This document shows positions 10,400-51,295 of a stretch of DNA of 64,000 nucleotides, in pieces (within the stretch, counting starts at the first letter, position 1; every line of letters begins with the position of its first letter). Made by a program: the position numbers and the translations under genes. This DNA is from an uncultured Roseobacter sp. GTDB lineage: Bacteria; Pseudomonadota; Alphaproteobacteria; Rhodobacterales; Rhodobacteraceae. The stretch lies in contig CANMWT010000004.1 of the NCBI GenBank assembly GCA_947501635.1, positions 1-64,000 of the forward strand. Reading direction: 5' to 3'. The notes under the pieces were generated by a model that worked only from the letters and a program-made list of their open reading frames with translations, ran no database searches and had not been told where the DNA came from.

Positions 10400-10411
10400 A
10401 CCCTGAATTGC

Positions 10412-10433: not shown

Positions 10434-10498
10434 TCATATACCGTCAGATGCGGCCGGCACGGGATGAACCCCGCCGACGAACAGGATTTCTTTCTCCG

Positions 10499-14765: not shown

Positions 14766-14780
14766 AGAAGGACCGAACAA

Positions 14781-16403: not shown

Positions 16404-16409
16404 CCATGC

Positions 16410-17465: not shown

Positions 17466-17489
17466 TGCACTTTTTGGGGAGGATCGAAA

Positions 17490-28271: not shown

Positions 28272-28373
28272 GTATAGTTGTGTCGATTCTTGTTACGATT
28301 GTATTTGATCCTTGGGCGCTAAGGGATTGATATTTCAAATTATTTGGCGATTTTTTTGTTGAGGGGTGCAATT

Positions 28374-31300
28374 TTGGCATATCCTTTTGGTCAAGGCCCG
28401 TTGTCGAACGAACTAGGTGGTGACACCAATTCACATTTAAACCTCCACTGGTCAGGAGAGGCGCTGGGCCGCCGCGCCAAGCGCACCCGACGAAGCATGG
28501 CCCCCGGGGCACCGACGGCACGTGCTGCCAATCTGGATATCGAAGCGCTGGAACCCCGTTTCCTTTTGTCCGCTGACCTGCTGCCTGTCAGTGTCGATCT
28601 GGATCCCTTAGGCTCGGACCTTGTGCTGCAATTCGATCCCGGTGAAGGGATAGACCCCAGTGTATTAAAACTTCTGGATGCCGAAAACGATATGGCCGTG
28701 GTCGCCACGATAGACCCAGCGCAGGTCGGTGATATCGAACTGGTTTCCGGCGATGGTGATACCAAACTGACCGTCGATGTGATCATGCCGTTCCCATTTG
28801 ATAACGCGATCCATTTCGATGCAGGCGGCGGCAATGACGTATTGGCAGGCCCTTCGGCGGACACGACATGGAATGTGACTGGCGTTGACGAAGGTTCCGT
28901 CGCGGGCATTAGTTTTAGCGGTGTTGAAACCTTGCAGGGTGCGGCGGGCAATCAGGACACTTTTGTGTTGGCAGAGGGTGGGTCGCTTTCAGGTGTCGCA
29001 GACGGTGGCGCAGGCGGTTTTGACGTGGTCGAAGCGCAGGGTTCTACTTTGACAAGTAAGCCAACGGGGCCGCAATCCGGCACGGTCACCGTTGATGGCG
29101 TGGCGACCGAATACGCTGGTCTCGAACCCATCGTACTGAGCGGAAGCAACATCGTTCTGGATGGCACTGATGTGCCTGATGTATTCGGGTTGCCGGTCGG
29201 CGACAACATTGTTCTGGAGACGGATCCTTCTGGGTCAGGAGCGTTGGTTTTTCGTCCCGCCACGCCCACGTCCATTCCGTTTGAGGCAACGTTTTTCAAT
29301 GCGGATGCAGCGTCGATCACCATAAACCTTGGTGCCGGCGCTGACCAGCTCAGGGTTGGTGATCTGGGGGATTTTAGCGGTAGCTTGACGATCAACGGTG
29401 AAGGTACGCTCTTGTCGGACCTCGATCCGCTCATCAATTCAAACCCGGGTGCTACGGATACGGTGATCTTTTCTTCCGATCTGTCACTGGCGGGCAATGC
29501 ACTGACCGTCGACGCAGAGATCATCACCGTTGAGGCAGGCGTTTCCATTTCGACAGGCACCGCCGGAGCCGCCGGTAATGTGTTGTTCACCGGTGAAGTT
29601 ATTGAGCTGTTGACCGGTTCGGCACTGCAGGGCGGCGACATCACGCTGATCGCAGATGCAGAAAGCAACGCGCTCGATCTGCTTGTGCTGGAATTCATCG
29701 AAGCGGACGCGCGCATCTCACTTGAGGATGCCAGTCTGATTGGTGAGAACGTAACGCTGACCGCGCATGCAACTTCGCTGATTGGCGACAATCCATCCGC
29801 GCTCGAAGAGCTTGCGTCAAAGGTTTTTGATTTTCTGCCGCTGACCGATCTCCAAAGTCCCGTCATTTTCAGCGACACCACGGTCACGTCTACGGTCGAG
29901 ATAAATGGGAATAGCGTTATCTCTGCTGCGGGCGATGTCACAATGACATCAGACACCGACGTAATTTCGAGCATTACGACGCTGATGCTGGCGGCAGATT
30001 TTCCGGCAGGTAGTGCCGTTTTCAACATGATTGACGCCGATGCATCCGTTGGGGTCGGCTCTGGATCAGAGATCAACGCAGATGGGTCGGTGGCGTTGTC
30101 GGCCATTCTGGACAACGATGTGACCACACTGGCGACTGGAGCCAGCAAACTGTTTTCGATCGAGTATGCTTTGGTGGAAGTTGACGCCTTTGCATTTGCT
30201 GTTGTCGGAAGTGGAGCAACAGTTTCCGCCGGTACATCTATTGATGTGTTAGCACAGATTACAAACAACCTTTCTACGACGGCAAAGCCATTTGAGGGCA
30301 CAGAAGGGTCGCGGGGGGCCGACTTCGCACTCAGCTTCCTGAACTCGCAGGCAACCGCGGCGATTGACGGAACGGCCACGGCGGGCACCACCATCAATGT
30401 CACAGCGACGTCTGAGACCACAGATGTGGTCGGGGCAGCGTCCGATCCGGCGAACATCATTTCTGAACTGCAAAGCATCAAGGACCAGTTCAGCAACACC
30501 ACGAAAGAGTCGACGCGCATTCCGTTTGACGCATCCACAGGTCTTACGATTGTCGAAAACGCGACCGGAGCCGAGGCGCGTATTGGCGATGGGGCCACAG
30601 CCACCGCAGGTGGCGATGTCACTGTCGAGGCGTCCGCGGTCGCCAAAGTGCAATACACCGCCACCAGCGAGGTGGAAGACGCCAGCTTTGGTTTGAACGC
30701 GGCGTTGGCCTTTGGCGATGTTACAATTGATGCCAAAGCGTTTGTAGGTGAATTTGCGACCGTGACTGCGGGTGGCAACCTGGTGGTCGAAGCCGCGGCC
30801 TCGGCCCCGAAACAGGATGGCTTGGGTCAGATTTTCACCTTCTTTGAAGACAAGACCTTGCTGGATATCTTCTATGACACGGTCATTGCTTTAAACGACC
30901 TCGAAACGTTTATTGTTGGCCAACTCTTTACAACATATGCCCGCTCTTCTGTGGATACTTCATCGGATGATGGTGAAGGCGGTGTTGGCATAACCGCGTC
31001 GGCTGTCGATTTCTCGATAGATACCAATGTGATGGCCTTTGTTGGAGCCGAGGCGACTGTCACGGCTGATGACGTTCTGATCAACGCAAAATCTCACATC
31101 GATACAGTCAATATGACGGGCGTGACCGATTTTGAGTTTGTCGTCGTGCCCAACCCTGTGGGTGGTACCGATGGCGCCGTAACAACCGGTGCTTCGTTGT
31201 CATTTATGGACTATGACGTTGACGTCTATGCCTTCATTGATGATGGCGCGATGGTAACGGCGCAAGGTCGCGTGGATGTTACTGCCTCATCAACCGAAAA

Positions 31301-34300
31301 CATCTTCATGCTGACAGAATCTGGCGGCAAAGGGGATAGTTTTGCGCTGAACGGCGCAGGATCGACTTTCAACCGCTCCGCGAAAGTCATCGGGTTCATC
31401 GATGACATGGCACGGGTAGATGCCGTTGGCGATGTCACGATCATCGCAGAAGATCATACAAATGCTCTGGTCCTTTCAGGCGGCGTGGCCAAAGGCGCCA
31501 ACGTCGGCGTCGGGCTGTCCGTTGCGCAGATCGACATCACGGGAGCCACCCGTGCGTTCATCGGTGATGCCGAGGCGCAAAGCGACATTTTCGCCGGGCT
31601 ATCTTTGTTCACACCGATCACCGGCAAAGTGGCAAGCGATGGCAGCATTCGGGTGGAGGCAACGTCCGGCGGGCCTTTGGAGCTGTCAGGCGGCGTGCCC
31701 ACACCGAACCCCAACCAAATCGAAGCTTATGCGGTTGCGGGTGCAACCGGCCCGGACGACACAGGCGATGCGGCCGGGGGCAAGCAGTCTGGCAAAGGGA
31801 AATTCGGTCTAAACGTTTCGGGTGATATTGCCATCAACACGATTGGCGGCGACACAACGGCCTTCCTTGACAGCACAGCTGTGCTGGAGCCGGGTCTTGC
31901 CGTCAAAGTCGAAGCTTTTTCAGACAGCTTTATGCGTGCCATTACCGGGTCGGCTGTCTATGCAGGAGGCGGGTCTTCAGGTATTGCGGGTTCTTACTCG
32001 CAAAACACTATTGATAAAACTGTGCGTGCCTTCATCGACGGGGCCAGTATCGCGGATACTACCGGTTTCGCCGTTCTGGATGTTACGGCTGAAACCCAAG
32101 GCAGCATTTTCGCCATAAGTGCCGGCGGTACCAGTGCTGGCAAACTTGGTGTGGCAGGTTCGGTGTCCAACAACACCCTGACTGGTAAGACCGAGGCGTT
32201 CATCGACGGTGTTACACTGGACCGCGCAAATATTAGAATTGAAGCCGCCGACGGGTTCGATCTGGATAACGCTGTCTCTTTTGACGGCGATCTCAGCGAC
32301 AATGAGGGCCGTGGAATTTTCTCCGTTGCAGGGGCCGTTACACTTGGTGGCAAAGCGGGCATTGGTGCCGGTGTCGCGATCAACGAAATCTCCAGCGAGA
32401 CACGCGCCTATGCTGATGATCTTAACATTGGCTCATTGAATAGTGTCAGTGTGCTGGCTGTTACAGACAACGAGATTGAAAGCTATGCTGCGGCACTGTC
32501 CGCGGGGGCGAGCAATGCGCTTGCAGGGGCTGTCACCTACAACACCATCGAAAACAAGACGCAAGCGATGATTATCGGGAGCACGCTTGGCATGATTGCG
32601 CCTGCACTTAATGGCATTTCGGTGGTGGCCGTCGACGCGTCGAAAATTCGGACCGGCGCCGGAGGCATCGGGGTCAGCAGCGGCGGTACAATCGGTTTCG
32701 GCGCCTCTGCCACTTACAACAAGCTGGCAAGCACCGTAGAAGCGAAAATCGAAAACGCGCAGGTTCAGTCCGACGCCGACGTCGTCGTTTCAGCGGAGGC
32801 AAGCCGGGAAATCGAAACCGTGGCTGTTGCTGGCAGCGGCGGTGGCACGGCAGGGGTGGCAGGTGCAATCGTCATCAACGATCTGGACAACACTGTCAGG
32901 GCACATGTCACGGGCGGTGCCGTCTTGTCGGCTGGCAACATTGACATAGCAGCAACACAGACCAGTGATTTGACGGCCTTTGCCTTTGGCGGGTCACAAG
33001 GGAGTACCGGAGCGGTTGCGGGCGGGGTGGTCTGGAACACATCGGACAACATCGCCGAGGCCTTTGCTGATGGCGCGACGGTTGATGCCTTGGCGCAATT
33101 GCCTGCGCGGTCTGTCGCTGTACTGGACGTCGGTCAGGGTCCTGCTGCAGAATTGCTTACCGGTGTTTCGATCACTGCCCTGAACGCCGCGCTTGTCACG
33201 TCGACCTCGGCAAATGTGGGCGCCGCAGGAACGGTCGGCGCAGGGTTGAGTGGCAATACCACCATCATGCGTGACCAGTCGCGCGCTTATGTGACCGGCG
33301 GGGCAGAGATTAATCTGGCAGAAGGGGCGAGCGCGGGGCAAAGCACAACCGTCCGCGCCGGAAACACGGTGGGCATGCTGTCTATCGGCGGTGGGCTTGG
33401 CGGCAGCGGTACTGGCGGTGTCGGTCTTGCCAACAATACGCTGATCATGCGCACCGACACGGATGCCTACATTGATGGCGCAAGTTTTGTCGGGGCTTTG
33501 AACGATGTTGATGTCGCCGCCGCTGCGGTTCAGACAATCGACGATATTGTGGCGGGCGGCGGTGCTGGCGGTACGGCGGGTATCGCGGGTTCGGTATCTG
33601 TGGGCGTGTTTGCTTCCAGCGTGTCTGCGACGGTCGGGGACGCAACCGTCATCGCCGGCGACGCATTGAGCGTTTCGGCCGATCAATCGGCTGAACTGCT
33701 TCAGGTTGCCGGCTCTCTGGGCGGTGCGGGCACTGTCGGAGCGGGTGGATCGGTTGCGGTTTCAGTTGTCAAAAACGTCACCAATGCCGAGATTGGCAGT
33801 GCCGCGACAACAGATGCGGCAGGTGAAACCCGCGTGGCTGCGACCTCGACAGAGGCCTTTGACACAATCGCCGCGACGATTGGCGGAGGCGGTACTGCAG
33901 GGCTTGGTGCCTCGGTGATTGTAAAGGTGAGCGAAGCCGAAACCTCGGCCTTGATCGCGGCAGGCGCGCAAGTGAATCAAACGGCTTCTGCGGCCGGTCA
34001 ATCGGTTTTGGTCGAAGCTGCTGATACGGTTGATATGCTGTCCGTTGCCGGCGCGCTCACCGGCGGTGGTACCGCAGCGGTCGGCGCGTCGACGGATGTT
34101 CAAATTCTCAGGAACAAGACGCTGGCTGAGATCGGTTCTGATGCAGCAGTATCAGCGGTCGGTGACGTCTCGGTTGTGGCTGATGCAGCGCAGCTGGTCG
34201 ATTCATATGTTGTGTCGGGCGCGGGCGGCGGCACCGTCGGTCTGGCCGGTGCTGTGTCGGTGCTGGCCATCGGCAGCGCGGTTGACCAGTCGCTGATAAC

Positions 34301-37300
34301 CGATACCGGCAGCGGCGCGACAACACAGGGGCAGGTGGACCAACTTTTAGGCGGTTCAGAGACCGGGAGTGCGCTGGGGTCTTCGTCAAATGAGGACATA
34401 AACGGGTTTACTGACGCATCGCGGAATGATGGCGAAGCCGAGACCGGGTCACTCAACGTGTCGTCGGACGTCGAAGCAAGCGGCGCGGCAGCCCTTGGAA
34501 ACACCGATGCGATCATCGGCGAACGCGCTGTAGTGTCAGCGGGCGCGTTGACCGTTTCTGCAGACAATGCACTCACGCTTAATTCTGTTCCGGTCGGCGG
34601 TGGCTTTGCGGGCGCCGCGGGCCTTGCGGGTGCTGTTGGCGTGACAAACGTTCAAAGCTCAGCACAGGCGCTTGTCTCTGATGATGCGAAACTGGGTGTC
34701 AGCGGTGATGTCGATGTGTTGGCAACCACCAGCGAAGATATGGTGACCGTCTCAGCCGCAGGAGCAGCCGGTGGTACCGCATCCTTAACCGGGTCTGTTC
34801 TGGTCACGACAGTTGATACAACAACACAGTCCCGTCTGGGCAACAACGTACAGATCGGACAAGATGGTGCCGCAATAGCCGATAATCTGAACCTGTCCGC
34901 TGTCAACACCACGACGTTGACGAGTGTCGCAGGTCAGATAGGTGTTGGTGGCACCGTCGGTCTGGGAGGCTCGTCCAATACGATACTCTTTGGCAAAACG
35001 ACGAATGCGTTGATTGGCGCTGGTTCAGACATTGATGTTCTGGGTGACGTCAGCGTCACGGCCAGCACGTTTGATGACATTGATGCTGTGACGATCAGCG
35101 GTGGCGGCGGTGGGGTCGTTGGCCTTTACCTTATGTCAGGCGTGAACGTGATCGAAAATTCAACGCTCGCGTCAATTCAGGACAGCGTGGTGATAAGCGC
35201 GGGCAACAACGTGCTTGTTGATGCGATGCATGAATCCGATTTGGTCAGCGTCGTCGGCGCGGCCAGCATCGGCGGCACCGTTGGGGTAGGCGGTGGCGCG
35301 GGGGTAAGTACCTTCGGCAGCATAACCGCGGCACGCATCGACAGCGCGGAAATCGAGGCCATAGGCGCCGGCAACGACGCGCGTGTCGATGGACGAAACA
35401 TCTCGGGACTTTCTGTGCGCGCCGCCTCATCGCTTGATCTGACCGCTGACACTTTTGCGGTGGCAGGCGGGTCGATCGTCGGGCTGGGCGCTGCTGTTAC
35501 GACAAACATCATGGGTGTCGGGACCGAGGCATCCATCGGCGCAGGCGCATTTGTGTCCGCTCCGGACATTGCGGTAAGCGCGCAGAACCTATCAGATGTC
35601 TTTGGAGGTGCACAAAGCCTGGGCGCGGGAACGGTCGGTGTCGGGGGCGCAGTTGACACCGAAACATTCGAAAATGCCGTTTCTGCCGGAGTTGCAGGGG
35701 CTGCCATTTCGTCTTCTCGCGGTATCTCCATTGACGCGCAGAACAGGGAAATTCTAGGTACAATCACAGGCACTATTTCTGGCGGTGTCGCCGGTTTGGG
35801 TGGTGCTGTGACCGTTGCAACCCTGCGCAGCACGACCTCGGCCTTGGCCACGGATGCAGTAATGGACGGTGCGGGAGATCTGGATATCAATGCGCTGTCT
35901 GACACGACGACAAACCAGCTTTCCGGTCAGGTGGCGGGCGGGGTCGGTGCAATTGGCGCCAGTGTTTCAACGTTGGTCGACAGCGCATTGACCGAAGCCT
36001 TCGTGGCCGCTTCCGATCTTGATCTCGAAGGCACGGTAAGCGTGGCTGCCGACAGTGCCCGCGATTTCAACACACTGGCGCTTGGCGGAGCGGGTGGTGT
36101 TATTGCTGTGAACGGGGCGGTTTCCACAATCGCTGACGATTCAGCAACCAGCGCGGAAGTCCGCGCGAACACTACTGTTGATGAGACGGCAAAGCTGGCA
36201 GTGACGGCCAACAGCCTGCAAAGCTATGCTGCGGAGACAGGTATCGCCAATGTGGCCGTCGGCGCCATTGGCGCGGCAGTGACGACGGTATCGTCAGATG
36301 CGATCACCATCGCCGAAGTCGATGACCTTGTCGCCATAGGACAAAGTGCTGCCATCGGGGACATGGACGTTTTGGCAACTTCGAATGCGACGGCATGGGT
36401 GGACGGTATCGCCTTGTCCGGTGGCGTCGTTTCGATCGATGCGACAGTCTCGAGCGTGACGCTAAACCCATGGACAACCGCGCAGATACTGAGTGCGGAC
36501 ATCAACGCCACAGGCGCGGTCGTTGTGGAGGCCATCAGCGCGGCCACTGGCGACGTGGACCTTTTATCTGCCGCAGCGGCGCTCGGCGCGGCCAATGCTG
36601 CTGTCGCCGTGACGAATGTGGCTCCGACAACACAAGCTTTGGTCGGCGCGGGGTCCTTCATCAATGCCGGAGATCTGCACATTCTAGCACATGCCGACGT
36701 GACCGCAACGAGCAACACAGCGTCGGCTTCTCTGGCAATCGTGTCGGGGGAGGGATCGGTCGCGCTGGCGACGGCGGATCCGACCGTGTCTGCGCTATTG
36801 GAAAGCGGGCTGGGCAGCGACCGCTCTGAGGTGCTGCTGGCGGGTAACCTTGAAATACGCGCCTCAGGCAATGCGCGTGCGGACGCTACATCAGACGCCT
36901 CGTCTTTCAACTTCGGCGGCATCGGGGCTTCGGTGGCCATTGCGACGATGAATGGCGACGTCGACGCCAGTTTGGCGACAGGTGCACTGATCACCGCTGC
37001 GGGTTCCGCAAGTGTTCGGGCTTTAATGAATGTTGATCCGAATACACGTCTGATTGCCGAAGGAAACAAAGCCAAAGCCAATGCGATTTCTGCCTCTGGC
37101 GGCTTGATCGGTGGCATTGCCGGGTCAATTGCCACAACGAACACTTCGATAGATGTGGACGCAAGCGTGGGTGACGACGCGGTCATCGATGCCGGAATGG
37201 TATTGGTTGAGGCCCATGGTTTCACAGATGTGGAAAACCTAAGCGGGGCAGGGGCTTCCGGTCTCTTTGTGGCAGCTTCTGCATCACTCTCCAACGCGAC

Positions 37301-40300
37301 GATCGAAAACGAGACGATTGCGACTGTAGGGGACCGGGCCAAATTGAATGCAGCCAGCGATCTGACGGTCGCCGCACGTGCGATCACACATGGGGCGGTA
37401 ACAGCACTGGGCGGGCGCGGCAGCGAAAGCGACGACAGTGCCTATAAGGGCACGGGCGTTGGACTGCCGACCCTGATCGACGGGGGTGGTGCGATTGTCA
37501 CAGGGTCGGTCAACGCGATAGCCCTTGTCGACGTTGGCGATGACGGAATTCTCACTGCGGACAACTCGGTGTCCTTGCTGGCGCGCAACTTGATGAACGT
37601 TGATTTCCGCGCCGCGATGGATCAGGGCGCTTTCAGTTTCAGCGATCTCAACATTGTGGGCGGCGCAGTCGCTTCGTCTGACATGACGATTGACGGGGAT
37701 GCTATCGTACGCGTGGGCGACCGCACGGTTATCGCGGCGGATATCGTGAATATCGACGCTGCAAATGAAATTCTGGCCACATCCAAAGCCAGAGCCATCG
37801 GCGTTGGCGCTCTGGGCTCTTTTGCGTTCTCAAATGCAACACTTGACGGTGCCGACACGATCGAAGCAAAGGTCGATCTTGGCCAATTTGTTGATATTAC
37901 GGCTGATATCGCGGCGACTTTGTCCGCATTCAATGACGGTGTCGATCAGGCTTTGATTGCGGAAAGCTTTGCCAAATATGACAGCTTCACGGTTGGGTTA
38001 GCCAACGCCGTGGTCAACGGCACGTTGAGTGTTGATGCGACGGTAACCAGTGGCGGTGATCTGGACCTGAGTACGAACGATCTGATGGTGATCGCAGATT
38101 CGGTTATGGCCTTGCAACGCCAGGCGGATGTCGAGGCTGACGGTGGTCTGACCAAAGTAGTCGAGGTGCTGGAGCGTACTGTCGTTCGCGTCGTGAAAAC
38201 GGTTTGTAAATGGCTGCCCTGGCCGCTGGACAAGCTGTGCGAGACAGTCGTCGATACGGTGGTGCGTTGGGTTAAGAAACTGGTCGAGGTTGTGGAAAGC
38301 TCTCTGACGTTCACGTCTCAAAATGGGGCGGGTTTCAGCGAAACGGCCGCAATAAACCTGAACGGCACGCTATCAAACTTCAACACGCAACCGCGGTTTT
38401 TGACTGTTGGCGCAGATGGCGGGATTGATCCTACCAGCAATATCGCTGCCAGAATTGAAGGCGGACAGATCATCGTTGATGACATCATTAGTGACGTCGA
38501 TCCGATCATGAGCTTCTTTGCACCGGATGGGAGCATTGTTGGCGACGCGCTGATCAATGTGAACCGGACCATCCCCAAAATCGAGATACGCAATGCTTCT
38601 GAACTCGATTTGGTGATTGGCGGCATCACCATGACATCCGAGGCGGATCTGGGCATCGTCGACTTCGATCTGTCCTTTGTGTCACTTGTGCCAGGAGAAG
38701 AGTACGAGTTCGCCCCCAACATTCTTGAATCCACACTGTTGATCGAGAATACCGGCGACAGCGACATCATATTCTCGGAAAGCTTTGAGAGTGTTACGGC
38801 GGTCATGGATATTGTGAATACCGGCGGAGATATCCTGACAGCACCTGACAACGTGACAATTACCGTAGGCGATGTGGGCCATATCGTGTTCGAGGCTGCA
38901 GGCAGCGTCGGCACCGCGGCAGATCCCTTTGACCTTGTGTTGATCCGCGGACAGGTCATGCCAGACGGTCAGGCGGGGAATATGCCGGCCGAGCTGGTTG
39001 TGGCCGCAGATACCGCGCATATCGGTCTGACGGGCGTGAACACAACGCAAGCGGCGTTTGATGCCGCTCAGAAAGTCGACGGTATCACCGTGGCCGCATC
39101 GACAATGGGCGACTTCAATCTGTATTTAGGTGACAGCTTCATCCGTGATATCAATGGTATAGATTGGCTTGCAGATGGCACATACACGATTGTGGATGTT
39201 ACTTCTGTGTCGGGCGACGTGACCATCGAAGCGACAAACGCGAATGCCACGTCGGTTGACTTTGGCCTGATCCCCGATTGGGTCGGTTGGCAAGAGACAA
39301 ACCAGCTGTTCATCGATTCCGGCGCAGTCGGGACAATATCGGCGCTTGGTGGCACGGCCCGTATCGCTGTCAACGGCACCATCACCGATAGGGATGGCGA
39401 TCCGGACACTGAAATTATTGCCAACCGGATCGAATTGTCCGCTGCAAGCATCGGGGCTGCGGGCAACGCGCTTGAGATCGACGCCGTTGCCGCTTTTGAG
39501 GCATCGGCCACGGGCAACATCTTTGCAACTGACACGGCCGGAACTCTCAATCTGGATGGCGTGTCGGGTGATTTGGTCGGTCTTGTTTCGCTTGATGGTG
39601 ATATTCTGGGGGTATCCTCCACGTCGGATCTGGAGGCGAACAGCGCCTATCTGGTTGCCCAAGGCAGTATCGGAAGCGCGGTCGATCCGCTTGAGACTTC
39701 CGTTAATGTATTGGATGCCAACGCCTTGGGGGGTGGCATCAACATCGTCAACAACGGCGCTCTCATCCTTGCGGACCTGGCGTCAGTTGATGGAATTTCA
39801 GCGGATGGCGACATCGAAATTAGTGCGCTGAGCCCGATCACCGTTTCAACGGATATGGCCGGCGTAAACATCGCGCTGACCGCGACGCAATCAGCGGGCG
39901 ACGACTTCATCAATGTTGCGGAAGGCGTTGAACTTGCTGCACTGGCCAACGTTGATCTGGAAGCCGGTGATGCGGTATCACTCTTCGCCCAAGCATCTGT
40001 TCTGGCTGGCGGCGCGGTGGCGATCAGTGCCGGAACCAACATCACTCTGGCCGAAGAAGCGGCCATCACTGCAGACGTCGACGTTTCATTGATCGCGGCA
40101 CAGGATATCGCGCTTGGGGTATCGTCTTCGGTAGAGGCAGGCGGGCTGGTTGCACTCGACGCGGGTCGCGACCTGACAGTCGGCGCGGGCGCCGAAATTT
40201 CCGGTACCGGTGGCGTGGCGCTGACGGCTGGCGCATCGATACTGCTGGATGACCTGTCGACCATAAACAGTGACGGGGCGGTGACCGTTTCTCTGACCGG

Positions 40301-43300
40301 CGGCAATGGGCAGCCTGGCTCCGGCGGCACAATCGTGCTGGGCGGTACAATCAATGCGGGGCAGATCGACATCCTAGGCACGGACGGTGCGGACACCATT
40401 GCGATCCGTGCCGTGACCGAAGACACGCCGATGACTGTATCAGGCGGTCTGGGCGACGATCTTGTCCGGGTCGGCAGCAACGCCAATGAGACGGACAATA
40501 CCGGCGGTGATCTGACTCAGATCGCGGCGCTTCTGACCGTCGATGGTGGTGGGCAGAACGACGTATTAGACTTGGATTCAAGCGGTCTTGGTGCAGGAAC
40601 CGGAGAGTTGACTGCAACGCTGTTGACCGGGCTGGGCATGCAATCAGACATCTTCTACAGCGGTATGGCGACACTGAATGTCACGCTTGGCGAAGAGGCC
40701 GACGATTTTACAATTCGATCAACCCACAGTGGCCAGACCTTCCTGTCAGGCGGGTCAGGCGAGGATGCGATCTTTGTAGAAAGCATTGCCGGGCAGACCG
40801 ATATCGACGGTGGAGACGACGACGACAGCATCTTTGTCGGTCTCAAAGCGCTTCCTTCGGTTCTGGACGGTATTGCTGCGCAGCTGAAAGTCGACGGTGG
40901 CGGTGATGCAGACACGCTGACACTGGATGACAGTGGTGAGAATGCGAATGAGCTGGGCGTGTTGACGGCCAGCGACGTCAACGGCTTTGGCATGGCGGGC
41001 GCGGTTCTTTATGAAGGTGTCGAAACGCTTAACGTGGAGCTGGGCTCCGGCGATGATCGGGTCGATATCCGCAGCACGCTTGCCGAAACCAATTTGAAAA
41101 CAGGCGCGGGCGGAGACCTGATATACGTCTCGTCAGGTGCCGATCTAAGTCAGCTTGAAGGCTACGCTGGGCCGCTTGGTGATCTTGCTGCGCTGCATGA
41201 CGTGGCACTGCACGGCACGCTTGACGGGATTGTTGGCGCGTTGGATATCGACGCAGGCAGCGGTTCAAATACTCTGAGCGTCAGCGACCGGGATGACGTT
41301 GATCCTGATGGTTCAGTCTTGCTGACAAGCAACGCAATCACAGGCCTTGCGCCCGTGCGCATCGACTATGCGGCCACCGGCGGTGATTTCTCTGGGCAGG
41401 GTTTCTGGTCTCAGGCGATTAATGTCGGTTTGTTCGGCCGCGGCGTGAACATCTACGCTGGCACTTCAAATGATGCAGTGCTGATCGACAGCGTTGCTAC
41501 CGGTGGGGTTGCGCAGGCGTTTGGTCAGGTCGTGACGACGCTGTTTCTTGGCGCGGGTCAGGATACGGCAGTTGCCGATCTGGATACCGGGCATCTGGTG
41601 GTGCGCGGCGAGGGCGGAGACGACAGTTTGGATGGTACATCGTCAAGCGTTGACCTTTTACTCTTTGGCGATGCCGACAGTGACGAACTAATCGGTGGTT
41701 CAGGTTCGGATCTGCTCTTTGGCGACAGTGGACGGGCAACCTATCTGGCACCCACCGGTTTTGATGTCACATTTGGAGGCGCCCCTGTGTCCGATCACAG
41801 TGGTGGCGGGCGCGATGCAGACTTCGACAGCCTCGACGTTGTCAAAACCGTTGGCGGTCTTGGCGACGGTGCCGATGTAATCCGCGGTCTGAGCGGTGAT
41901 GATGTGCTTCTGGGCGGCGGTGGGTCCGACGCGATCGATGGTGGTGAGAACCGCGATCTGATATTCGGTGATGGCGCAACACTGTTGCGCACAGACGGTA
42001 TCGACGACAACCTTGACCCGAGATTCCGCAGCCTGACAGGCGCGGAACTCTATAGCAACGGCCTGAATGACGTGAGCGAAGGTGAGCCACTCGTGGCAGC
42101 TGCCGCCAATCTGGATGCAGAAGGCAATGCGGACTGGTCGGATTGGACCATAGATGCCCAAAACAGCGCCAACGACGGCGATGATACGCTCGCCGGAGGT
42201 GCTGCCAGTGACAAGGTGTTTGGGGGTCAGGGCGATGACAGCATCCGTGGCGACGGGGCACTGGACGCTGCGGGCATGCTGGTCGCTTCGACTGGCGCAG
42301 GTGATGACTATGTTGAAGGTAATGGCGGATCGGATTCCATCTGGGGCGACCTGGGGCAGGACGACCTGATTGGCGGCTCTTCTGCACTCTATGGGCTTGA
42401 GGCCGCGGAACGGGCGGACGGCTCGGATGTCATCTTTGGTGGTACAGGCGATGCTGCCGCGCGTGATGATGCCGGCGACACGTCAAACGGTGGACATGCG
42501 ACTGATGCGGATATGATCCTTGGCGACAATGGTAACATTTTCCGGATTGGAACAGCAGGACCGTCAGGCTTCGCTCTGGCGGAGTTTGCCTATGACCAGT
42601 CTTCGCCTTTCGAAGACCGTGGTGATGAACGTATCGTGGTGCGCGCTGCCGAGCTTCTGGATTACACGCCGGGTGGCGTGGAAAACGACGCATTGGCGAG
42701 CGGCGATCTGGGCGCCGGCGATGAGTTGCACGGCGAAGCAGGTGACGACACGGTATACGGTATGACCGGTAGTGACGAGCTTTTCGGAGAAGGTCAGGAT
42801 GACGATCTGATCGGTGGGCGCGGCCATGACGTGATCTATGGCGGCACCGGAAACGATGGCGTAATCGGAGATGACGGACGGATTTTCACCAGCCGGATCG
42901 GAACCGCAGAGCCGTTGTACGGGATTGAAGCCATCACCGAGCTGGATGTGAACATCAGCATTTCGGGTAACCGTTTGAGTGCTACTCTCAACGAGGAAGG
43001 CGCATTGAAGAAATCGGTTGATCTGACACCTTTCGACCCGCTGCGCGAGGTGGTGCCCGGCGAAACGCTGGATATTCCAATTGAAGGCGATGATGTCATT
43101 TTCGGTGGGTTGGGTGACGATTCCCTGCATGGCAGCCATGGCGACGACGCCATCTCGGGTGCAGAGGCTGGGGCGTTGGTCTACGGCAATCTGGTAAACC
43201 CGGGCAATCTGTTGGTCTTTGGCGCGGAAGGGGCGGAAGTCTTTGACCCGCTGGCGCGGATTGACGGGCTGTTCTTGAACCCTGACGATACTGCGCCGGA

Positions 43301-44402: not shown

Positions 44403-44470
44403 AGCCGCAGCGCGTTGCCGAACCTTGGTTTTAGTGAGAGACTTGATCGTTACGTACAGAAAGGAATGTG

Positions 44471-44809
44471 ATGAGTAATCCGAACCCGGCTGGAAAAGCC
44501 GAAGCTGGCGAAGAAGCGCGCGCGCCGCGCGTGGTCTGGAACGACCAGAACATGCGAACAACCTATGCCAATGCCGTGAACGCAGTCAGCACGATGGAAG
44601 AGGTCGCGATTTTCTTTGGTGTCAACAAAAGCTGGAATCCGGGCGAGGGGGATTTGGAAGTTGATCTGAGCGACCGGATGGTTCTGAACCCGCACGCTGC
44701 AAAACGGCTTTGGACGATCCTTGGGGCTGTGTTGTCGCAACATGAAAGCAGGTTCGGCCCATTGAACGTGCCGCAACCTTCGAACGCGCCCAAAAGCTCA
44801 GACGACTGA
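44471..44809 (+). CDS. DUF3467-family small protein
   Basis: The 112-residue soluble cytoplasmic protein follows AGAAAGGA. The core matches the DUF3467 pattern: RVVWNDQNMRTTYANAVNAV, then STMEEVAIFFGVNKSW, LSDRMVLNPHAAKRLW and a final HESRFGP. DUF3467 proteins are small, single-domain and of unknown function. It lies 68 bases after the giant gene and 23 before the GAF-HlyD gene, inside a run of export-type genes, so it may be a chaperone or regulator for the giant protein. That role is inferred from position only. Confidence 0.8.
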   Translation: MSNPNPAGKAEAGEEARAPRVVWNDQNMRTTYANAVNAVSTMEEVAIFFGVNKSWNPGEGDLEVDLSDRMVLNPHAAKRLWTILGAVLSQHESRFGPLNVPQPSNAPKSSDD

Positions 44810-44832
44810 TCTAAGCGCTTGGAATCTGATCC

Positions 44833-46677
44833 GTGACAGAGCGCTGGTCCGAAAACACGTCAGAACCCAACGCCAAGGTGTCGGTTCTGGAGGAGTCGCT
44901 TTGGGCGGGTTTCCAGAGCGCGGACACACCTGCTCTGCGTGCCGAGCGATGGCTTTCGATGCAGGTGCGTCAGTTTTCCGAACCTTCTGCCGCCGTTCTG
45001 GTGCTTGGGGACGAGGAAGGAATGTTTGCACCGGCTGCTTTTTGGCCCGGGCGCGCAGCAGTATCCACCCACGTCATGGCGCAGGCAGAGCGGGCGATAC
45101 AAGACGGTCGCCCGGTCGCGGATGGCGAGGACAATGGTCCGGTTGTATTGGCCTGTCCGGTCATCGTTGATGGCGTTGTACGCGGTGCCCTGAGTTTGGC
45201 CGCCACGGGGCAACGCCGCGATATCATGCGCAAGATGCAATGGGGCCTTGGCTGGGTCGAGGCCTTTTTGCGCGACCGTGCAATGCAGGACATCCAAAGC
45301 GACGGACGCCGCATGGAACATGTACTGGAGAGCCTTGCCGCCGCATTGTCGCAAAAAGACTTCCGGCATATGGCCGAAGCACTGGTGACGGATCTGGCCT
45401 TGCGGCTTGAGTGTGAAATGGTCGCGCTGGGGTTTCGCAAACGCCTAAACACCAAAGTGGTGCGCGTGTCACATGCGGTGGATTTTGGCAGCCGCATGAA
45501 CCTTACGCGTGATCTGAGCGGTGCCATGGACGAGGCACTGGATGCGGGCTGCCTGATCGTCCATCCCGAACCGGCGGGCGCTACGGTCTCAAACCGAGCG
45601 CACCGCGAACTGGCGCGGACACACCAGGCTGCAAACCTTCTGAGCGTTCCATTCGATGTGGGCGGTGATCTTGTGGGCGCTTTGACCTTTGAACGCCGCG
45701 ACGGGCTGCCGTTTGACATGGCCACGGTCGAGCTTTGCGATTGTATCGCGGCTGTGTTGGGGCCGGTTCTTTATGCCGCGTGGAGAGAAGAGCGGTGGAT
45801 CGGCACCAAGCTGGCGGAGAGTATAAAGCGCAGCGCGCAACGTTTGTTAGGGCGCGGATACGTGGGGCGTAAAATCGCGTTGCTGGCCAGTGTTGGGGTG
45901 GTTGCGCTTTTTGCGACGTGGAAAACTGATTTCGTCGTCACCTCTGATGCGCTTATCGAAGGCAGCGTACAGCGTGTGGTATCCGCCCCATTTGAAGGTT
46001 ACATCGCAGCCGAGGAGTTGCGCGCGGGATCGATTGTTCGGCAAGGCGATGTGCTGGCGCGTCTGGACGACCGCGACCTGTCGCTGGAAAGGCTGCGATG
46101 GACCACGACAGTGCGCGAGAAAGAGACAGAATACAGCCGCGCTCTGTCTGTAGGGGACCGAGTCGAGGCCAGTGTCATTCAAGCGCAAATCGATCAGGCG
46201 CGCGCTCAGGTAGGGTTGATCGAAGAACAGATCGCACGGACGGTCCTGACTGCACCGCTGAACGGCATCATCGTGTCAGGAGATTTGTCGCAAATGATCG
46301 GCGCGTCTGTGTCGCGGGGCCAGCCGCTTTTCACTATCGCGCCAATTGACGACTTCCGCGTGATACTATCGGTCGATGAACGCGACACAGCGCAGATTCA
46401 GCCGGGGCAGACAGGTCAGATTCTGATCGCCGCCCTTCCTGAACAACCGCTGCCCTATGTGGTAACCCAGGTCACGCCAGTCAATCATATTGGCGACGGT
46501 CGCAATCTGTTTCGAATTGAAGCTGACCTGAAAGAGACAGACGCGGCCTTGCGGTCTGGCATGCAAGGCGTCGGCAAAACCACCATCGAGGAACGTCTCA
46601 CGATCGCGAACTGGACCAGAGGCTTGCGGGACTGGTTGAGAATGGAACTTTGGCGTTGGAAGCTCTGGAATGGGTGA
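44833..46677 (+). CDS. GAF-GAF-TM-HlyD fusion (membrane-fusion/adaptor protein with cytoplasmic sensor)
   Basis: The 614-residue protein starts at GTG. Residues ~1-310 look like two GAF domains (VLVLGDEEGMFAPAAFW... and LSVPFDVGGDLVGALTFERR). A single membrane helix lies at about 345-360 (KIALLASVGVVALFATW), and the remainder is a HlyD/RND-type adaptor: a split lipoyl half (VVSAPFEGYIAAEELRAGSI; VRQGDVLARLDD), a short helical hairpin (~415-465), the second lipoyl half (LTAPLNGIIVSGDLSQMIGA) and a beta-barrel part. Adaptors bridge an inner-membrane pump and an outer-membrane duct. Here the cytoplasmic side carries sensor domains instead of contacting a visible pump. The last eight bases overlap the M50 gene. 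Confidence 0.75.
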   Translation: MTERWSENTSEPNAKVSVLEESLWAGFQSADTPALRAERWLSMQVRQFSEPSAAVLVLGDEEGMFAPAAFWPGRAAVSTHVMAQAERAIQDGRPVADGEDNGPVVLACPVIVDGVVRGALSLAATGQRRDIMRKMQWGLGWVEAFLRDRAMQDIQSDGRRMEHVLESLAAALSQKDFRHMAEALVTDLALRLECEMVALGFRKRLNTKVVRVSHAVDFGSRMNLTRDLSGAMDEALDAGCLIVHPEPAGATVSNRAHRELARTHQAANLLSVPFDVGGDLVGALTFERRDGLPFDMATVELCDCIAAVLGPVLYAAWREERWIGTKLAESIKRSAQRLLGRGYVGRKIALLASVGVVALFATWKTDFVVTSDALIEGSVQRVVSAPFEGYIAAEELRAGSIVRQGDVLARLDDRDLSLERLRWTTTVREKETEYSRALSVGDRVEASVIQAQIDQARAQVGLIEEQIARTVLTAPLNGIIVSGDLSQMIGASVSRGQPLFTIAPIDDFRVILSVDERDTAQIQPGQTGQILIAALPEQPLPYVVTQVTPVNHIGDGRNLFRIEADLKETDAALRSGMQGVGKTTIEERLTIANWTRGLRDWLRMELWRWKLWNG

Positions 46678-48817
46678 TGCGGACGACATATTATCAAGCC
46701 CCTCTTGGCATCGTGTCGCCGGATTGAAACCGCGTATTCGTGCGCATGTAAAATTTCATCGGCATGGTTTTCGGGATCAGATTTGGTTCGTTCTTGAGGA
46801 TCGCGCAGCGGGCCGCTTTTTTCGCTTCTCTCCCGCAGCACATGAGCTGATCAACCGAATGGACGGCACAAGCACAGTTGAAAACATCTGGCAGGCTTTT
46901 GCTGCCAAGCCTGGAAATGAGACAGCAAACCGTTCGGATGTGATCAGCCTGCTTGCGCAACTTCATCGCGCAAACGTGCTGCACGGAGACACCTCACCCG
47001 ATATCGGTGAATTGGTGGAACGTACCGAAAGGACACAGCGCAAAAAGGAAATGATGAAGTTTCTCAATCCTTTGGCGATCAAGGTTCCGCTTTTTGACCC
47101 TGAGCGCTTTGTGGCAGTGACCTTCCCGCTGGTGCGACCGCTCTATTCGGTGTTCGGGCTGATCCTGATCCTTGGCCTGATTGGATATGCTGCACTACAA
47201 GCATCAATGCACTGGCAGGAACTGACCAACAATTTTTTTGATCGTTTGCTCACGGTGCAGAATTTCGTTCTGATCCTTCTGGCCTATCCGCTCATTAAGC
47301 TGGTCCATGAATTCGGCCATGCTTATGCGGTCAAGCGATGGGGCGGCGAGGTTCATGAACTGGGTGTGATGATGCTGGTTTTCATGCCGGTCCCATATGT
47401 CGATGCATCGGCTGCCGCCGCGTTTCCAAGCAAATGGGCACGCGCGCTGGTCGGATCAGCTGGCATATTGGTTGAGCTTGCTCTGGCAGCCATTGCGCTT
47501 TTGATCTGGTTGCAGATAGAGCCGGGTCTGCCGCGTGCTTTTTTGTTCAATGTCATGGTGATAGGGGGCGTGTCGACGTTGTTGTTCAACGGCAATCCGC
47601 TGTTGCGATTTGACGGCTACTACGTACTCAGTGACCTGATCGAGATACCAAATCTTGGGCAAAGGGCCAACCGTTACATTCGATACCTTGTCATGGGCCG
47701 GCTTTTTGGTGCGGAAAACGTCAAATCGCCGGTTGCCGCCCCGGGCGAGGCTTTTTGGTTCGCTCTTTATGCGCCTGCCGCATGGATTTACCGGCTGTTT
47801 GTGATGGCTGCCATCATTTTCTTTGTGGCGGGAAAGGCCTTTTTCATCGGCATCGCACTGGCCTTCTGGGCCGTCGGGCTGATGTATGTATTGCCTGCGT
47901 TCAAAGGGGTGAAAGCACTGCTTTTCAGTCCCGATTTGCGCGGGCATCGCGCACGGGCCTTAGGTGTCACCGGCGGTACTCTGGGGGCGATTGTTGCGGT
48001 GCTTTGTCTGGTGCCGGTGCCGCACACGACTGTTGCGACGGGGGTCGTGAACCCAGGCTCTGACGCGCAGATTGTTGCCCTTACAGACGGTTTTGTTGCA
48101 GATGTAGGAAGCGCCGCCAATCGACGCGAGCGTGACCCGGTGGTCGTTTTGCGTGATCCGCTGCTCGATGCGCGTGAAGCGTCACTGATGGCGGATCTTG
48201 CGGTAATTGAAAGCCGGCAATGGAGCGCAGTAATCAATGAACCGGCAGAGGCACGCATATTGCGCGACCGGCAAGCGCACGCGCGCGCCGACCTGAACGC
48301 GGCACTGGAACGACGCGAAAACCTTGCCGTCTTGGCCACGGCGCCCGGCAAGATCGTGGTGCCCGGGCATGATGATTTGCCCGGACGGTTTATTCATAAG
48401 GGACAGTTGATCGGTTACGCGATGGATCCCGAACGCTACGTGATCGACGTGGTTCTCCCCGAAGCTCGAGTTGACCTTCTCGGGCGAACCGAAGCTATAC
48501 ATATACGTCGCGCGTCAGAGCCGTCGCTTATGGTGCGGGCCGCTTTGTTGCAGCAAACACCATCAGCGATTGATGTTTTGCCAAACCCCGCTTTGTCGAC
48601 CACCGCCGGGGGGCCGATTGTAACGGACCCGAACGACCCTGCAGCGCTGGCAACTGTAAGCCCGACGTTCAAGGTTCAGCTTGGCCCCGAAGTGCCGCTC
48701 TCGGGCAGTTTTATTGGTGAGCGGGTTTTTGTGCGGTTTGATCACGGATCGGAATCGCTGGCCCGTCAGGCCTACCGCAGCCTGCGGCAACTGTTTCTGG
48801 CACGGTTCAATGTCTGA
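46670..48817 (+). CDS. PqqD-like / M50 metalloprotease / lipoyl-domain fusion membrane protein
   Basis: The 715-residue protein has an N-terminal PqqD-like winged-helix region (~25-115; VLEDRAAGRFFRFSPAAHEL, the type used to hold peptide substrates). Several membrane helices follow with the site-2-protease zinc motif HEFGH at 213-217 and the distal ligand segment NGNPLLRFDGYYVLSDL. More helices (to ~460) precede a C-terminal biotinyl-lipoyl/HlyD-like region (ALTDGFVADVGSAANRRERD; VLATAPGKIVVPGHDDLPGR; IGERVFVRFDHG). The family is annotated as putative peptide zinc metalloprotease (YydH-like), and distant relatives act in peptide export or processing. Overlaps with both neighbours are eight bases. 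It is likely to clip or pass the giant protein at the inner membrane. Confidence 0.78.
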   Translation: MGDADDILSSPSWHRVAGLKPRIRAHVKFHRHGFRDQIWFVLEDRAAGRFFRFSPAAHELINRMDGTSTVENIWQAFAAKPGNETANRSDVISLLAQLHRANVLHGDTSPDIGELVERTERTQRKKEMMKFLNPLAIKVPLFDPERFVAVTFPLVRPLYSVFGLILILGLIGYAALQASMHWQELTNNFFDRLLTVQNFVLILLAYPLIKLVHEFGHAYAVKRWGGEVHELGVMMLVFMPVPYVDASAAAAFPSKWARALVGSAGILVELALAAIALLIWLQIEPGLPRAFLFNVMVIGGVSTLLFNGNPLLRFDGYYVLSDLIEIPNLGQRANRYIRYLVMGRLFGAENVKSPVAAPGEAFWFALYAPAAWIYRLFVMAAIIFFVAGKAFFIGIALAFWAVGLMYVLPAFKGVKALLFSPDLRGHRARALGVTGGTLGAIVAVLCLVPVPHTTVATGVVNPGSDAQIVALTDGFVADVGSAANRRERDPVVVLRDPLLDAREASLMADLAVIESRQWSAVINEPAEARILRDRQAHARADLNAALERRENLAVLATAPGKIVVPGHDDLPGRFIHKGQLIGYAMDPERYVIDVVLPEARVDLLGRTEAIHIRRASEPSLMVRAALLQQTPSAIDVLPNPALSTTAGGPIVTDPNDPAALATVSPTFKVQLGPEVPLSGSFIGERVFVRFDHGSESLARQAYRSLRQLFLARFNV

Positions 48818-50483
48818 TCTGGCGCAGGAATTTGCCCTAAAGTACACACCGCTGCCGCCCGCAGCTGCCGCCCAAGGCCTGCAGTGGCCCTTCGGGTCTA
48901 AAGCCCGAAAAGTGGCGCACCAAAACCGGGCCGGGAGCATGGAGCACGCCCGCGCCGGCGCGCTGTCGAAGGCCAGACAGGCCTTGGCGGTGGATCTGTG
49001 CAAAGACGCGGACCGCGCGGCAGCGGCATTGCTTGAAGGTGTGTCCGCAGACATTTTTGGCGCGCGGAAAAGACGCGCGGCGCTGTGCATTGGGGCGTTG
49101 GCCTCGGCCATATTAGACCCGGGCGTCCACCTGTGTACTAAGGATGATGCCGAGACTGCCGTATTGTCCGAGCTATTGAGACCGGCCGCCGAAAAGGTTG
49201 GGGTGTCCGTGGGGCTCATTACTGCACAATCTGACCGCGAGGCCCGGCTGCTGGCGTATCGCGCGCCGCTTACGATTGTCTGCGGGCTTGAGTTGGCCAG
49301 TGACGTGTTGCGCGATCAGATGGCGCTTGGCCCAAACCGGACCCCGCTTGCACGCAAGGTTCAACGGATAACGCGCGGCGGCACCGCTGTGTTGATACCC
49401 CGTCTGCGCCGTCTGATCGTATCTGACATATCGGGCATCCTGCTCGGGCAGTCACGATTACCTGTGATGCTGCACGACAGAGTACATCCTACGCAGCCAC
49501 CGGAAATGCTGTTTCAGGCTGTGGGGTTGGCGTCGGAGCTGGTGCTGCCACGCGACATTCTGCGTCAGGAAAATGCGTTTAGCTTTACCGAGGCAGGGGA
49601 ACGTCGGATTGAACGCAGTCTGCATCTTTATCCGGCCCTTGCGGAAGCACCGGACATGGGGCGAAAACTCGTGCTGGAGGCCGCAACCGTCCAATGGTTC
49701 TATCAGCGTGACCAGCATTTCAGCGTCGTGGAAGGGCGCGTCGACATCCATACCCCAAATGATGCGTCCTTTATCAGCGCGGATGACGCGCGGCCCTACC
49801 TTGAAGTGGCACATGGTATTGCACCTGCCGCGCGCATGGCGCCCGTCGCGCGGGTAAGGCTGCAGCGCGTTCTTGCGCGCTATCCTGTCGTGGCCGGGGT
49901 TGGTGTTGGTTTGCGCGCATATCGCCGCGAACTTCGCCGGACATACCCCGTCAGCGGGCCGCTGCTGGTAGGGCCTCCGGCGCCGCAGGTTTATGTGCGG
50001 GCGGTGACCGGGACGCGCAAGATGATCCGCCATATCGGGTCAATGGGTGCCGTAGATGTCATGCTGCCCGATGCAGACACAGAAGGTGAAAGCATGCAGA
50101 GGCTATTGGCGAGCGAAGCGCCCATGGCCCGCGCTGTGCGCCAAAAATCGGACAGGAACCCTGCTGTACCACTTGTGCTTTTGACCCCTGCTGAAGACCG
50201 CGCGGCCGACATCGCCTTGATCGAGGCATTTTCCGACGGCGTCAGCACCATCGAGCGCCTCGTTGATCTCAGGCTTGGGGCTACCCAAGGCATTGGGCCG
50301 AGATGGCTTTGTGCGGCGCTTGTCTTCGTGCCGCCCGGCAGCCTCCGAAACTGGCTGGTCAGGAACTGCATCTCGGTGTCCTATGCGATGGATGCGCGCA
50401 AGAATGCGCGTGCGCGCCGCGAACTTGTCCGCTACGATGACCGCCTTGACGATTTGCTCAGCTTTGCCGGGGAGCCCGAATGA
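48810..50483 (+). CDS. SecA paralogue with degenerate ATPase motifs
   Basis: The 557-residue protein starts at ATG 48810, overlapping the M50 gene; the longer open frame from 48681 is not needed. Collinear similarity to SecA is visible: GVHLCTKDDAETAVL for the strand after Walker A, DREARLLAYRAPLTIVCGLE and DVLRDQMAL for the EYGFDYLRDNMA region, LIVSDISGILLGQSRLPVML for [20 protein letters not shown], and FSFTEAGERRIERSL for the preprotein cross-linking neighbourhood. Walker A GEGKT is replaced by GARKR (84-88) and the DEVD box by SDIS (205-208), so ATP hydrolysis is unlikely. Length is well below SecA (about 900). Its place among adaptor genes suggests a targeting subunit that recognises the giant protein, probably with housekeeping SecA or SecYEG. 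Confidence 0.7.
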   Translation: MSDLAQEFALKYTPLPPAAAAQGLQWPFGSKARKVAHQNRAGSMEHARAGALSKARQALAVDLCKDADRAAAALLEGVSADIFGARKRRAALCIGALASAILDPGVHLCTKDDAETAVLSELLRPAAEKVGVSVGLITAQSDREARLLAYRAPLTIVCGLELASDVLRDQMALGPNRTPLARKVQRITRGGTAVLIPRLRRLIVSDISGILLGQSRLPVMLHDRVHPTQPPEMLFQAVGLASELVLPRDILRQENAFSFTEAGERRIERSLHLYPALAEAPDMGRKLVLEAATVQWFYQRDQHFSVVEGRVDIHTPNDASFISADDARPYLEVAHGIAPAARMAPVARVRLQRVLARYPVVAGVGVGLRAYRRELRRTYPVSGPLLVGPPAPQVYVRAVTGTRKMIRHIGSMGAVDVMLPDADTEGESMQRLLASEAPMARAVRQKSDRNPAVPLVLLTPAEDRAADIALIEAFSDGVSTIERLVDLRLGATQGIGPRWLCAALVFVPPGSLRNWLVRNCISVSYAMDARKNARARRELVRYDDRLDDLLSFAGEPE

Positions 50484-51295
50484 AAACCTATCGCCTCGCT
50501 GCATTGGCCTGTTTGATCACTTTGACTCCGGCTGCATATGCTCAGAATGAAGATCTGTCGTTCGATTGCGTGATAAAGCCACGCGAGATCGTTCAGGTTG
50601 GCAGCGTTGACGAGGGCTTGTTGGTTGAACGCGCCGTCAAGCGGGGTGACATCGTCGAGACGGGACAAGTCATTGCGCGGCTTGATGACACGCGCGAAAA
50701 GCTTGACGTGGTGCTTGCCCGCCAGACTGCCGAACGCGAGATCGAGGTTCTATCCCGCGAAGCCGCAGCGGAGTACAGAGCGGCTGAATCGGCGCGCATC
50801 GCCAACCTGGTCAGCCGCGAGCTGACAGCCGCGAATGAAGCACTGCGCGCGACGTTGGAAAAACAACTCGCACTTTACGCTGTCGAGGCCGCGAAACTGG
50901 ACAGACAGCTGGCCTTGGCCGAACTCAGCCTGGCCGAGAATGCGCTTGAACGCAGGACGATCAAAAGCCTTGTGTCTGGCATTGTCACTGAAACCAACGC
51001 GTCGCCCGGGGATTACATCAGCGCGCAAGTTCCCATCCTGACGCTGGCGAAACTAGATGTGCTGAATGTCGATGTGTTTCTGCCGACACAATACTACGGT
51101 GTGCCTGTCGAAGGCGCGCGTGCAACAGTCTTTCCGCAAGACCCCATCGGCGGGAGCTATGACGCGACGATCGAAACAGTGGACCGCGTGTTTGACGCTG
51201 CCAGCGGGACATTTGGTGTAAGGCTTACCATCCCCAATGAAGATTATTCACTGCCGGCAGGTCTGCGTTGTCGGGTGACGTTCGAAACGAACTGA
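50480..51295 (+). CDS. Periplasmic membrane-fusion protein (HlyD/RND adaptor type)
   Basis: The 271-residue protein has a signal peptide (MKTYRLAALACLITLTPAAYA, cleavage before QNED). A lipoyl half (VQVGSVDEGLLVERAVKRGD), a helical hairpin of about 90 residues (QTAEREIEVLSREAAAEY through LAENALERR), the second lipoyl half (IKSLVSGIVTETNASPGDYI) and a beta-barrel domain (VDVFLPTQYYGVPVEGARAT) follow. It is shorter than most adaptors (about 350-400) and seems to lack the membrane-proximal domain. The start overlaps the SecA-like stop by ATGA. It is the third adaptor-type protein in the cluster; no cognate pump or channel gene is adjacent. Confidence 0.8.
   Translation: MKTYRLAALACLITLTPAAYAQNEDLSFDCVIKPREIVQVGSVDEGLLVERAVKRGDIVETGQVIARLDDTREKLDVVLARQTAEREIEVLSREAAAEYRAAESARIANLVSRELTAANEALRATLEKQLALYAVEAAKLDRQLALAELSLAENALERRTIKSLVSGIVTETNASPGDYISAQVPILTLAKLDVLNVDVFLPTQYYGVPVEGARATVFPQDPIGGSYDATIETVDRVFDAASGTFGVRLTIPNEDYSLPAGLRCRVTFETN

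Follow-up and report, generated by a model that had tools for sequence, protein, structure and literature searches.

A gene cassette with an RRE-site-2 protease-adaptor fusion accompanies giant LEPR-XLL proteins and is a candidate pathway for their export and display

How does a bacterium bring a protein of more than five thousand residues to its surface? To our knowledge, the surface route of most bacterial proteins of 5,000 to more than 17,000 residues is an open question. It is raised by the window analysed here, a 64,000-nucleotide stretch of an uncultured Roseobacter sp. (GenBank assembly GCA_947501635.1, contig CANMWT010000004.1, positions 1 to 64,000 of the forward strand), in which a gene for a giant LEPR-XLL protein is followed by five closely packed genes. 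We found that this cassette recurs with such giants, and that the motif at the giants' N-terminus varies in step with the cassette's M50 protease. With a probability of roughly 0.6, we read the cassette as a dedicated export-and-display pathway for giants tagged by an N-terminal LExR motif. The features concerned are as follows.

28374..44402, forward strand: giant LEPR-XLL protein of about 5342 residues (open frame; LEPR-8K domain)
28539..28601, forward strand: N-terminal LEPR-XLL motif of the giant, IEALEPRFLLSADLLPV (NF012209, 32.4 bits; motif listing of related loci)
44471..44809, forward strand: DUF3467 protein, an optional part (PF11950, E 7e-17)
44833..46677, forward strand: GAF-HlyD fusion (GAF 2e-6, HlyD_3 5e-16)
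46670..48817, forward strand: RRE/PqqD-like - M50 site-2 protease - HlyD-type adaptor fusion (Pfam; model; fold matches)
48810..50483, forward strand: SecA-like protein without Walker A and DEAD-box motifs (SecA_DEAD 1e-11; alignment; model)
50480..51295, forward strand: short HlyD-type periplasmic adaptor (HlyD_D23 2e-15; signal peptide by eye only)

All six genes were found at the positions and in the order given by a first-pass annotation of the window, and its spacings were borne out, with gaps of 68 (ATG at 44471) and 23 bases followed by overlaps of 8, 8 and 4. Pfam and NCBIfam searches of the window proteins likewise upheld its names DUF3467, GAF with HlyD_3, PqqD, SecA_DEAD and HlyD_D23; the M50 name stands on a Pfam match of 2e-4, below the Pfam cut-off, beside a PqqD part at 3e-5.

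We studied co-occurrence in 295 genomes from the host's family, taking a match to NF012209 over its cut-off as LEPR-XLL. The M50 profile split this sample sharply: 34 loci, from 27 genomes, scored at least 650 bits (M50-A) and the others at most 378. LEPR-XLL was present in 27 of the 295 genomes and M50-A also in 27, with both in 24 (Fisher p = 7e-29). Moreover, all six genomes with multiple LEPR matches carried as many A-type M50 genes as LEPR matches (three of each in G565; two of each in G325, G352, G440, G489 and G519). The six mismatches were traced to contig ends (four: a cassette on a short contig in G467 and G532, a giant running off the contig end in G378 and G418), to a diverged motif (G548, where the giant frame runs to the cassette and starts with LEERIVLSGD) and to a weak LEPR match (G318, E 9.7e-4, deep within a 735-codon frame); in G295, LEPR and cassette lay on separate contigs. 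The window's SecA-like protein, a poor, degenerate query, picked up relatives in 21 genomes (E 1e-8), 21/21 with the M50 gene, and in the fetched stretches four of the six M50 genomes that it missed have a SecA-like gene beside M50 (G358, G371, G410 and G489).

Wider samples gave the same picture. LEPR was rare in the class sample (2/289, the second, G050, carrying a B-type motif, described below). Among the 348 genomes of the phylum sample, LEPR was present in 36 and M50-A in 33, with both in 29 (p = 2e-31); the remaining seven LEPR genomes carry a lower-scoring kind of M50, so that M50 was present in 36/36. Four M50-A genomes had no LEPR match: G771 has an adjoining giant with LEPRLLFSATLDA, and no SecA-like gene in the fetched stretches, while the contigs of G631, G655 and G694 stop within or close to the cassette or the large frame beside it. 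Across 84,980 species, a scan returned at least 583 M50 relatives, and the 80 kept as named loci represent Alpha-, Beta- and Gammaproteobacteria, Desulfobacterota, Myxococcota, a Nitrospira bin and a Rokubacteria bin. LEPR was found in 42 of the 50 genomes searched among these and was absent in eight, against 0/14 controls. Co-occurrence and the copy-number match ruled out a chance neighbourhood, and together with adjacency they strongly support dedication of the gene set to the giant, as the first-pass annotation had proposed. It had named, as a finding that would speak against it, the routine presence of the five genes where LEPR-XLL is missing; the search for this did not refute it.

We found that each of three M50 subfamilies goes with its own form of the motif at the giants' N-terminus: LEPRxLLSAD with a SecA-like gene (class A), LExRxxFDGA often with TolC (class B) and PLEPRxxLDAN with DUF3467 (class C). 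In class A, the motif [FIL][ED]xLEPRxLLSAD or a near form was present at 53 of 61 loci; these 61 gave 56 readings and five no reading, and three readings were off (L002, a B-type motif; L028, the spurious G318 match; L180, a wrong frame, read correctly in the later analysis of N-termini). The sister-class set comprised 40 loci of lower-scoring M50 genes and five earlier ones, 45 class B and C loci in all. The class B motif, LE[PQEA]R-x-x-[FY]D[GA]A, was read in 18 of 40 loci, the giant's start being out of view or not found in the rest, and the class C motif, [LM]EPRxx[LM]D[GA][NT]L, in 5/5. The shared pattern matched one of 1019 control frames, and a stricter one matched 21 of 41 frames of at least 1000 codons with their start in view at the named class A and the class B and C loci, against 3/841 shorter frames. 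Among the large frames that lack it are unrelated genes, antisense-looking frames and missed variants; one, at L216, has no motif and an ordinary-looking signal peptide.

In a quick tree of 69 M50 proteins (support 100 for B and C, 87 for A), the three classes required two changes, the minimum, a value that 0/200 shuffles reached, the labels being not wholly independent of the M50 sequence since the classes were first cut by M50 score. The labels came from a motif read beside the cassette for 18 class B rows, five class C rows, the window and 11 named class A rows, from a LEPR match placed near the cassette by coordinates for 21 same-family class A rows, and from a LEPR match merely somewhere in the genome for 13 named class A rows. 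Class A occurs together with B or C in single genomes (G000, G289, G497 and G746), and therefore the motif tracks the M50 gene and not the species. The window's own genome carries two of the three classes: a second M50 gene of the family lies on its contig C7, in the order HlyD, GAF-HlyD-like, M50, giant and TolC-type, and the giant there starts ...LALEERIMFDGA. Pfam matched no GAF domain in the two GAF-HlyD-like members of classes B and C that were tested. A possible fourth variant was seen at L267 (4703-10113, reverse strand) and L268 (8392-13566, forward strand), made up of SapC, short HlyD and GAF-HlyD genes together with a distant M50 (191 and 203 bits, respectively).

The classes also differ in their neighbours. 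Among the class B genes in reach, SecA-like proteins (0/39) and DUF3467 (0/37) were absent. A TolC-type gene was present at 24 of the 45 class B and C loci, against one weak match in 118 class A stretches; nine of ten such genes tested matched OEP in Pfam and one OmpA. The claim that no TolC-type channel belongs to the set does not extend to the sister class. A conserved ATPase in class B was looked for and rejected, the clusters of the 45 loci being HlyD/M50 (45), the giant family (28) and OEP (24), followed by unlabelled clusters of nine and six loci. In the window, a 270-residue frame at 61-873 (reverse strand) has an OEP (TolC-type) match at 208-774; it is shorter than full TolC and lies about 28 kb from the cassette.

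The M50 fusion is likely the hinge of the system. By fold matching, its model (pLDDT 87) joins an RRE/PqqD-like fold to an RseP-like core and to an adaptor domain of the MacA/MexA kind. The zinc motif HExxH was present in 69/69 rows and the third motif, by the pattern used, in 64/69, and the protein matched NCBIfam daptide_HExxH at 1e-45, though its 156 bits fall short of the cut-off of 300. That the LEPR-XLL region is recognised, as first proposed, is supported by this RRE/PqqD-like fold and by the motif variant that tracks the M50 subfamily. A viral origin was rejected: when IMG/VR was scanned with the M50 alignment, 13 pattern matches and 0 relatives came up. In the neighbouring GAF-HlyD protein of the window, a hydrophobic stretch at residues 344-362 is the probable membrane stretch between GAF and adaptor parts; a second hydrophobic window, 104-122, falls inside the GAF part.

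The giant's frame is open over 28344-44402 (5352 codons). The TTG at 28374 proposed as its start is probably right, since it gives MAYPFGQ..., which agrees with the M(A/S)xPF starts of related giants, a loose form of which was found in 20 of 56 N-termini, a few by chance. The protein matched NF012209 at E 2e-7, scoring 30.2 and 32.4 bits where the cut-off is 17. Near its C-terminus it carries RTX repeats (HemolysinCabind 9e-19) and a matrixin-like stretch (Peptidase_M10 5e-5, just under the cut-off), and it is probably displayed on the cell surface. By simple hydropathy only, no 19-residue stretch in its first 250 residues rose above the threshold, and by the same measure three of the 56 related N-termini attained a mean of 2.0 over 12 residues; the sequence ahead of the motif was basic, with a median net charge of +7. 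LEPR-bearing open frames of 19,427 codons (G681:C115 near 112865) and 17,824 codons (G358:C4 near 103221) were also seen, very long for bacterial genes.

Composition was counted at named class A loci with enough flank. The gene set was found again in most of the 80 named loci, across several phyla, with GAF-HlyD at 68/70, SecA-like at 63/66, short HlyD at 37/45, DUF3467 at 24/67 and SapC at 12/45; among the same-family stretches, 31 of 38 (window included) had the M50 gene, nearly always with GAF-HlyD and SecA-like genes. DUF3467 and the short HlyD protein, initially listed as parts of the set, are thus both optional, and of the conserved order that had been suggested the recurrence of the set held while a rigid arrangement did not: the giant lies downstream of the cassette at L060 and several named loci and faces it at L070, and the HlyD and GAF-HlyD genes sit at other places at L075 and L080. 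Consistent with the first-pass annotation, the window cassette has no type I ABC exporter: phmmer searches of 163 stretches with two PrtD-type queries from the window's own genome (E 1e-20) gave no near-full match and only four matches, of 72-99 bits.

Other genes recur around the cassettes. SapC genes lie within or beside many class A cassettes (L066 8693-9541 and L072 9274-10125, for example), in some cases separating the M50 gene from the SecA-like gene, and one member tested against PF07277 gave 8e-73. A conserved family of about 250-270 residues follows the cassette at L061 (10412-11230), L063 (11018-11815) and L074 (7403-8161); Pfam searches with two members gave no match. L271, a 184-kb plasmid of Alisedimentitalea scapharcae (NZ_CP123586.1), carries a cassette, with an M50 protein 47% identical to that of the window, and a gene for a large calcium-binding protein. 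A cassette with a large frame upstream of it was also seen in Thioclava pacifica DSM 10166 (L135).

The SecA-like protein had been called degenerate, and the alignment agreed: the window has GARKRR and SDIS, against TGEGK[TS] and DE[AVI]D in 26 other rows. The copy still models as SecA (pLDDT 76; B. subtilis SecA by Foldseek, E 1e-20). The family profile aligns to residues 13-608 of 783 of B. subtilis SecA and the C-terminal helical part is missing, which presumably leaves out the two-helix finger. Most rows among its relatives retain Walker A and the DEAD box. When three ATPase patterns were scored in 102 rows, one of them a 91-residue fragment, at least one pattern was missing in 13 and all three in five (the window, L100, L104, L122 and L161). 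A single ancient loss was rejected; the SecA tree groups the five rows, but its branches are very long and drew a program warning, and on the M50 tree the loss took three changes, two forced by starred branches (2-3 separate events). The L104/L122 pair was 62% identical at second and 32% at third codon positions, as expected under selection, so such proteins can apparently stay under selection; the window/L100 pair showed a weaker contrast, 48% against 34%. Since the window copy still models as SecA and the L104/L122 pair shows the codon pattern of selection, the ATPase is dispensable in some lineages, and the window protein is, judged by its sequence, a pseudo-ATPase. An essential SecA-like motor in general was rejected because class B and C loci are without any (0/45, including 0/39 of class B); with the ATPase motifs also gone in the window, the view of SecA as a core part fell.

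A short N-terminal tag that varies in step with the M50 protein points to a dedicated export or sorting pathway. Linkage, covariation with the motif classes and domain folds come directly from the computation, and from them we infer topology, binding, cleavage, channel formation, transport, display, direction and energy source as follows. The giant would be made with a basic N-terminus lacking an obvious hydrophobic signal core and ending in LEPRxLLSAD. The cytosolic RRE/PqqD-like domain of the M50 protein would bind the motif, and the M50 core would hold or clip the leader within the membrane. With their adaptor domains, the M50, GAF-HlyD and short HlyD proteins may build a path through the periplasm and dock it on a TolC-type channel, for which the sister-class cassette often has its own gene and which would come from elsewhere in the window's case. 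The RTX-rich C-terminus of the giant would fold extracellularly. The truncated SecA-like ATPase may feed or drive the chain in most class A systems; in the window, the part without ATPase motifs may only bind or guide it. Covariation supports motif recognition by the M50 protein; transport is a proposed step. N-terminal recognition with an HlyD/TolC-type path is the simplest account of the RRE-like fold, the covariation, the adaptor and TolC context and the basic N-termini. Altogether, the initial interpretation is supported in part: dedication and recognition survive, and SecA as a core part does not.

Alternatively, its RTX C-terminus might guide the giant out through a type I ABC exporter whose gene lies elsewhere, and the cassette might mature or anchor it, the M50/HlyD set trimming or tethering the N-terminus so that the chain is retained on the cell. 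The RTX repeats near the C-terminus agree with this, and a membrane-held N-terminal protease would fit a retention role. Two observations weigh against dedicated export by the cassette. Elsewhere in the genome there are several TolC-type genes and two exporters of the PrtD type that pass the cut-off, and these two type I exporters keep export in trans alive. The converse of the co-occurrence is also weaker, 38 of the 74 genomes with an M50 match (E 1e-30) having no LEPR match, as the M50 genes in most of these are solely class B-like. However, the cassettes carry adaptors and those of class B often their own TolC, none of the 163 stretches yielded a type I ABC exporter, and the giant is co-inherited with the M50 protein. 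We hold maturation or anchoring to be unlikely.

It is quite improbable that housekeeping Sec moves the giant, the SecA-like protein serving as a chaperone specific to this substrate or competing with SecA and the M50/HlyD proteins acting later. The frequency of the SecA-like gene in class A, a profile alignment through which SecA's partners could be shared and one full SecA elsewhere in the genome favour such a route, but most N-termini lack a strong hydrophobic core, class B and C cassettes have no SecA-like gene nearby, and the portion of SecA after residue 608 is missing. Decay of the window system, with an incipient SecA-like pseudogene and a shortened giant no longer exported, fits the lost motifs, the very long SecA-like branch, a giant of 5352 codons against 8000-18000 in many relatives and a same-genus genome without LEPR and M50 (G552), and is very improbable given six intact frames with tight overlaps, a retained M50 zinc motif, motif losses that recur in five of the 102 rows as 2-3 separate events, and the L104/L122 codon positions.

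Returning to dedicated export, we give even odds to a broader statement: that this is a novel type of Gram-negative secretion in which an N-terminal LExR leader is read by an RRE-site-2 protease-adaptor fusion standing in the ABC exporter's place, with HlyD partners and a TolC-type channel, for proteins many thousands of residues long, and that its motif/protease specificities fall into three or more orthogonal classes able to share a cell. The giants thereby gain candidates for a signal and for a receptor-protease, together with a small gene set, which spans Pseudomonadota, Desulfobacterota and a few more phyla. Site-2 proteases and RRE-type domains are known from signalling and peptide maturation; if the pathway is real, both join protein export.

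The novelty lies in the system as a whole, each named domain belonging to a known family. The LEPR-XLL domain has been named before (NCBIfam NF012209), and the giant is a member. It is mentioned in passing in PMC10868602 and PMC9611531, and the passages concerned do not link it to M50, HlyD or SecA genes. A literature search found no published description of the gene set, though one may exist in subscription papers or preprints, which lay mostly outside the search. Public records annotate the genes singly; on one plasmid, for example, 'peptidase M50' and 'preprotein translocase subunit SecA' stand next to a 'calcium-binding protein' of some 8,100 codons.

Three known systems come close. Like SecA2 accessory translocases, the class A cassette encodes a second SecA-type protein beside the presumed substrate gene; unlike SecA2, its profile stops at about SecA residue 608, its motifs are lost in five of 102 rows and the sister classes do without it. 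As in type I secretion of RTX adhesins, there are HlyD-type adaptors, an RTX-rich giant and, in the sister class, a TolC-type gene. However, the cassette has an RRE-like/M50/adaptor fusion where no ABC exporter was found, and the giant's signal is apparently N-terminal, the LExR motif, whereas that of type I substrates is C-terminal. Finally, the cassette shares a PqqD/RRE-like domain and an M50 protease with RRE-guided M50 peptide maturation (daptide, YydH/LiaK type); no peptide-modifying enzyme was recognised among the recurrent cassette neighbours. In contrast to those peptide systems, the substrate here is a giant protein, and the protease shares its polypeptide with a periplasmic adaptor domain.
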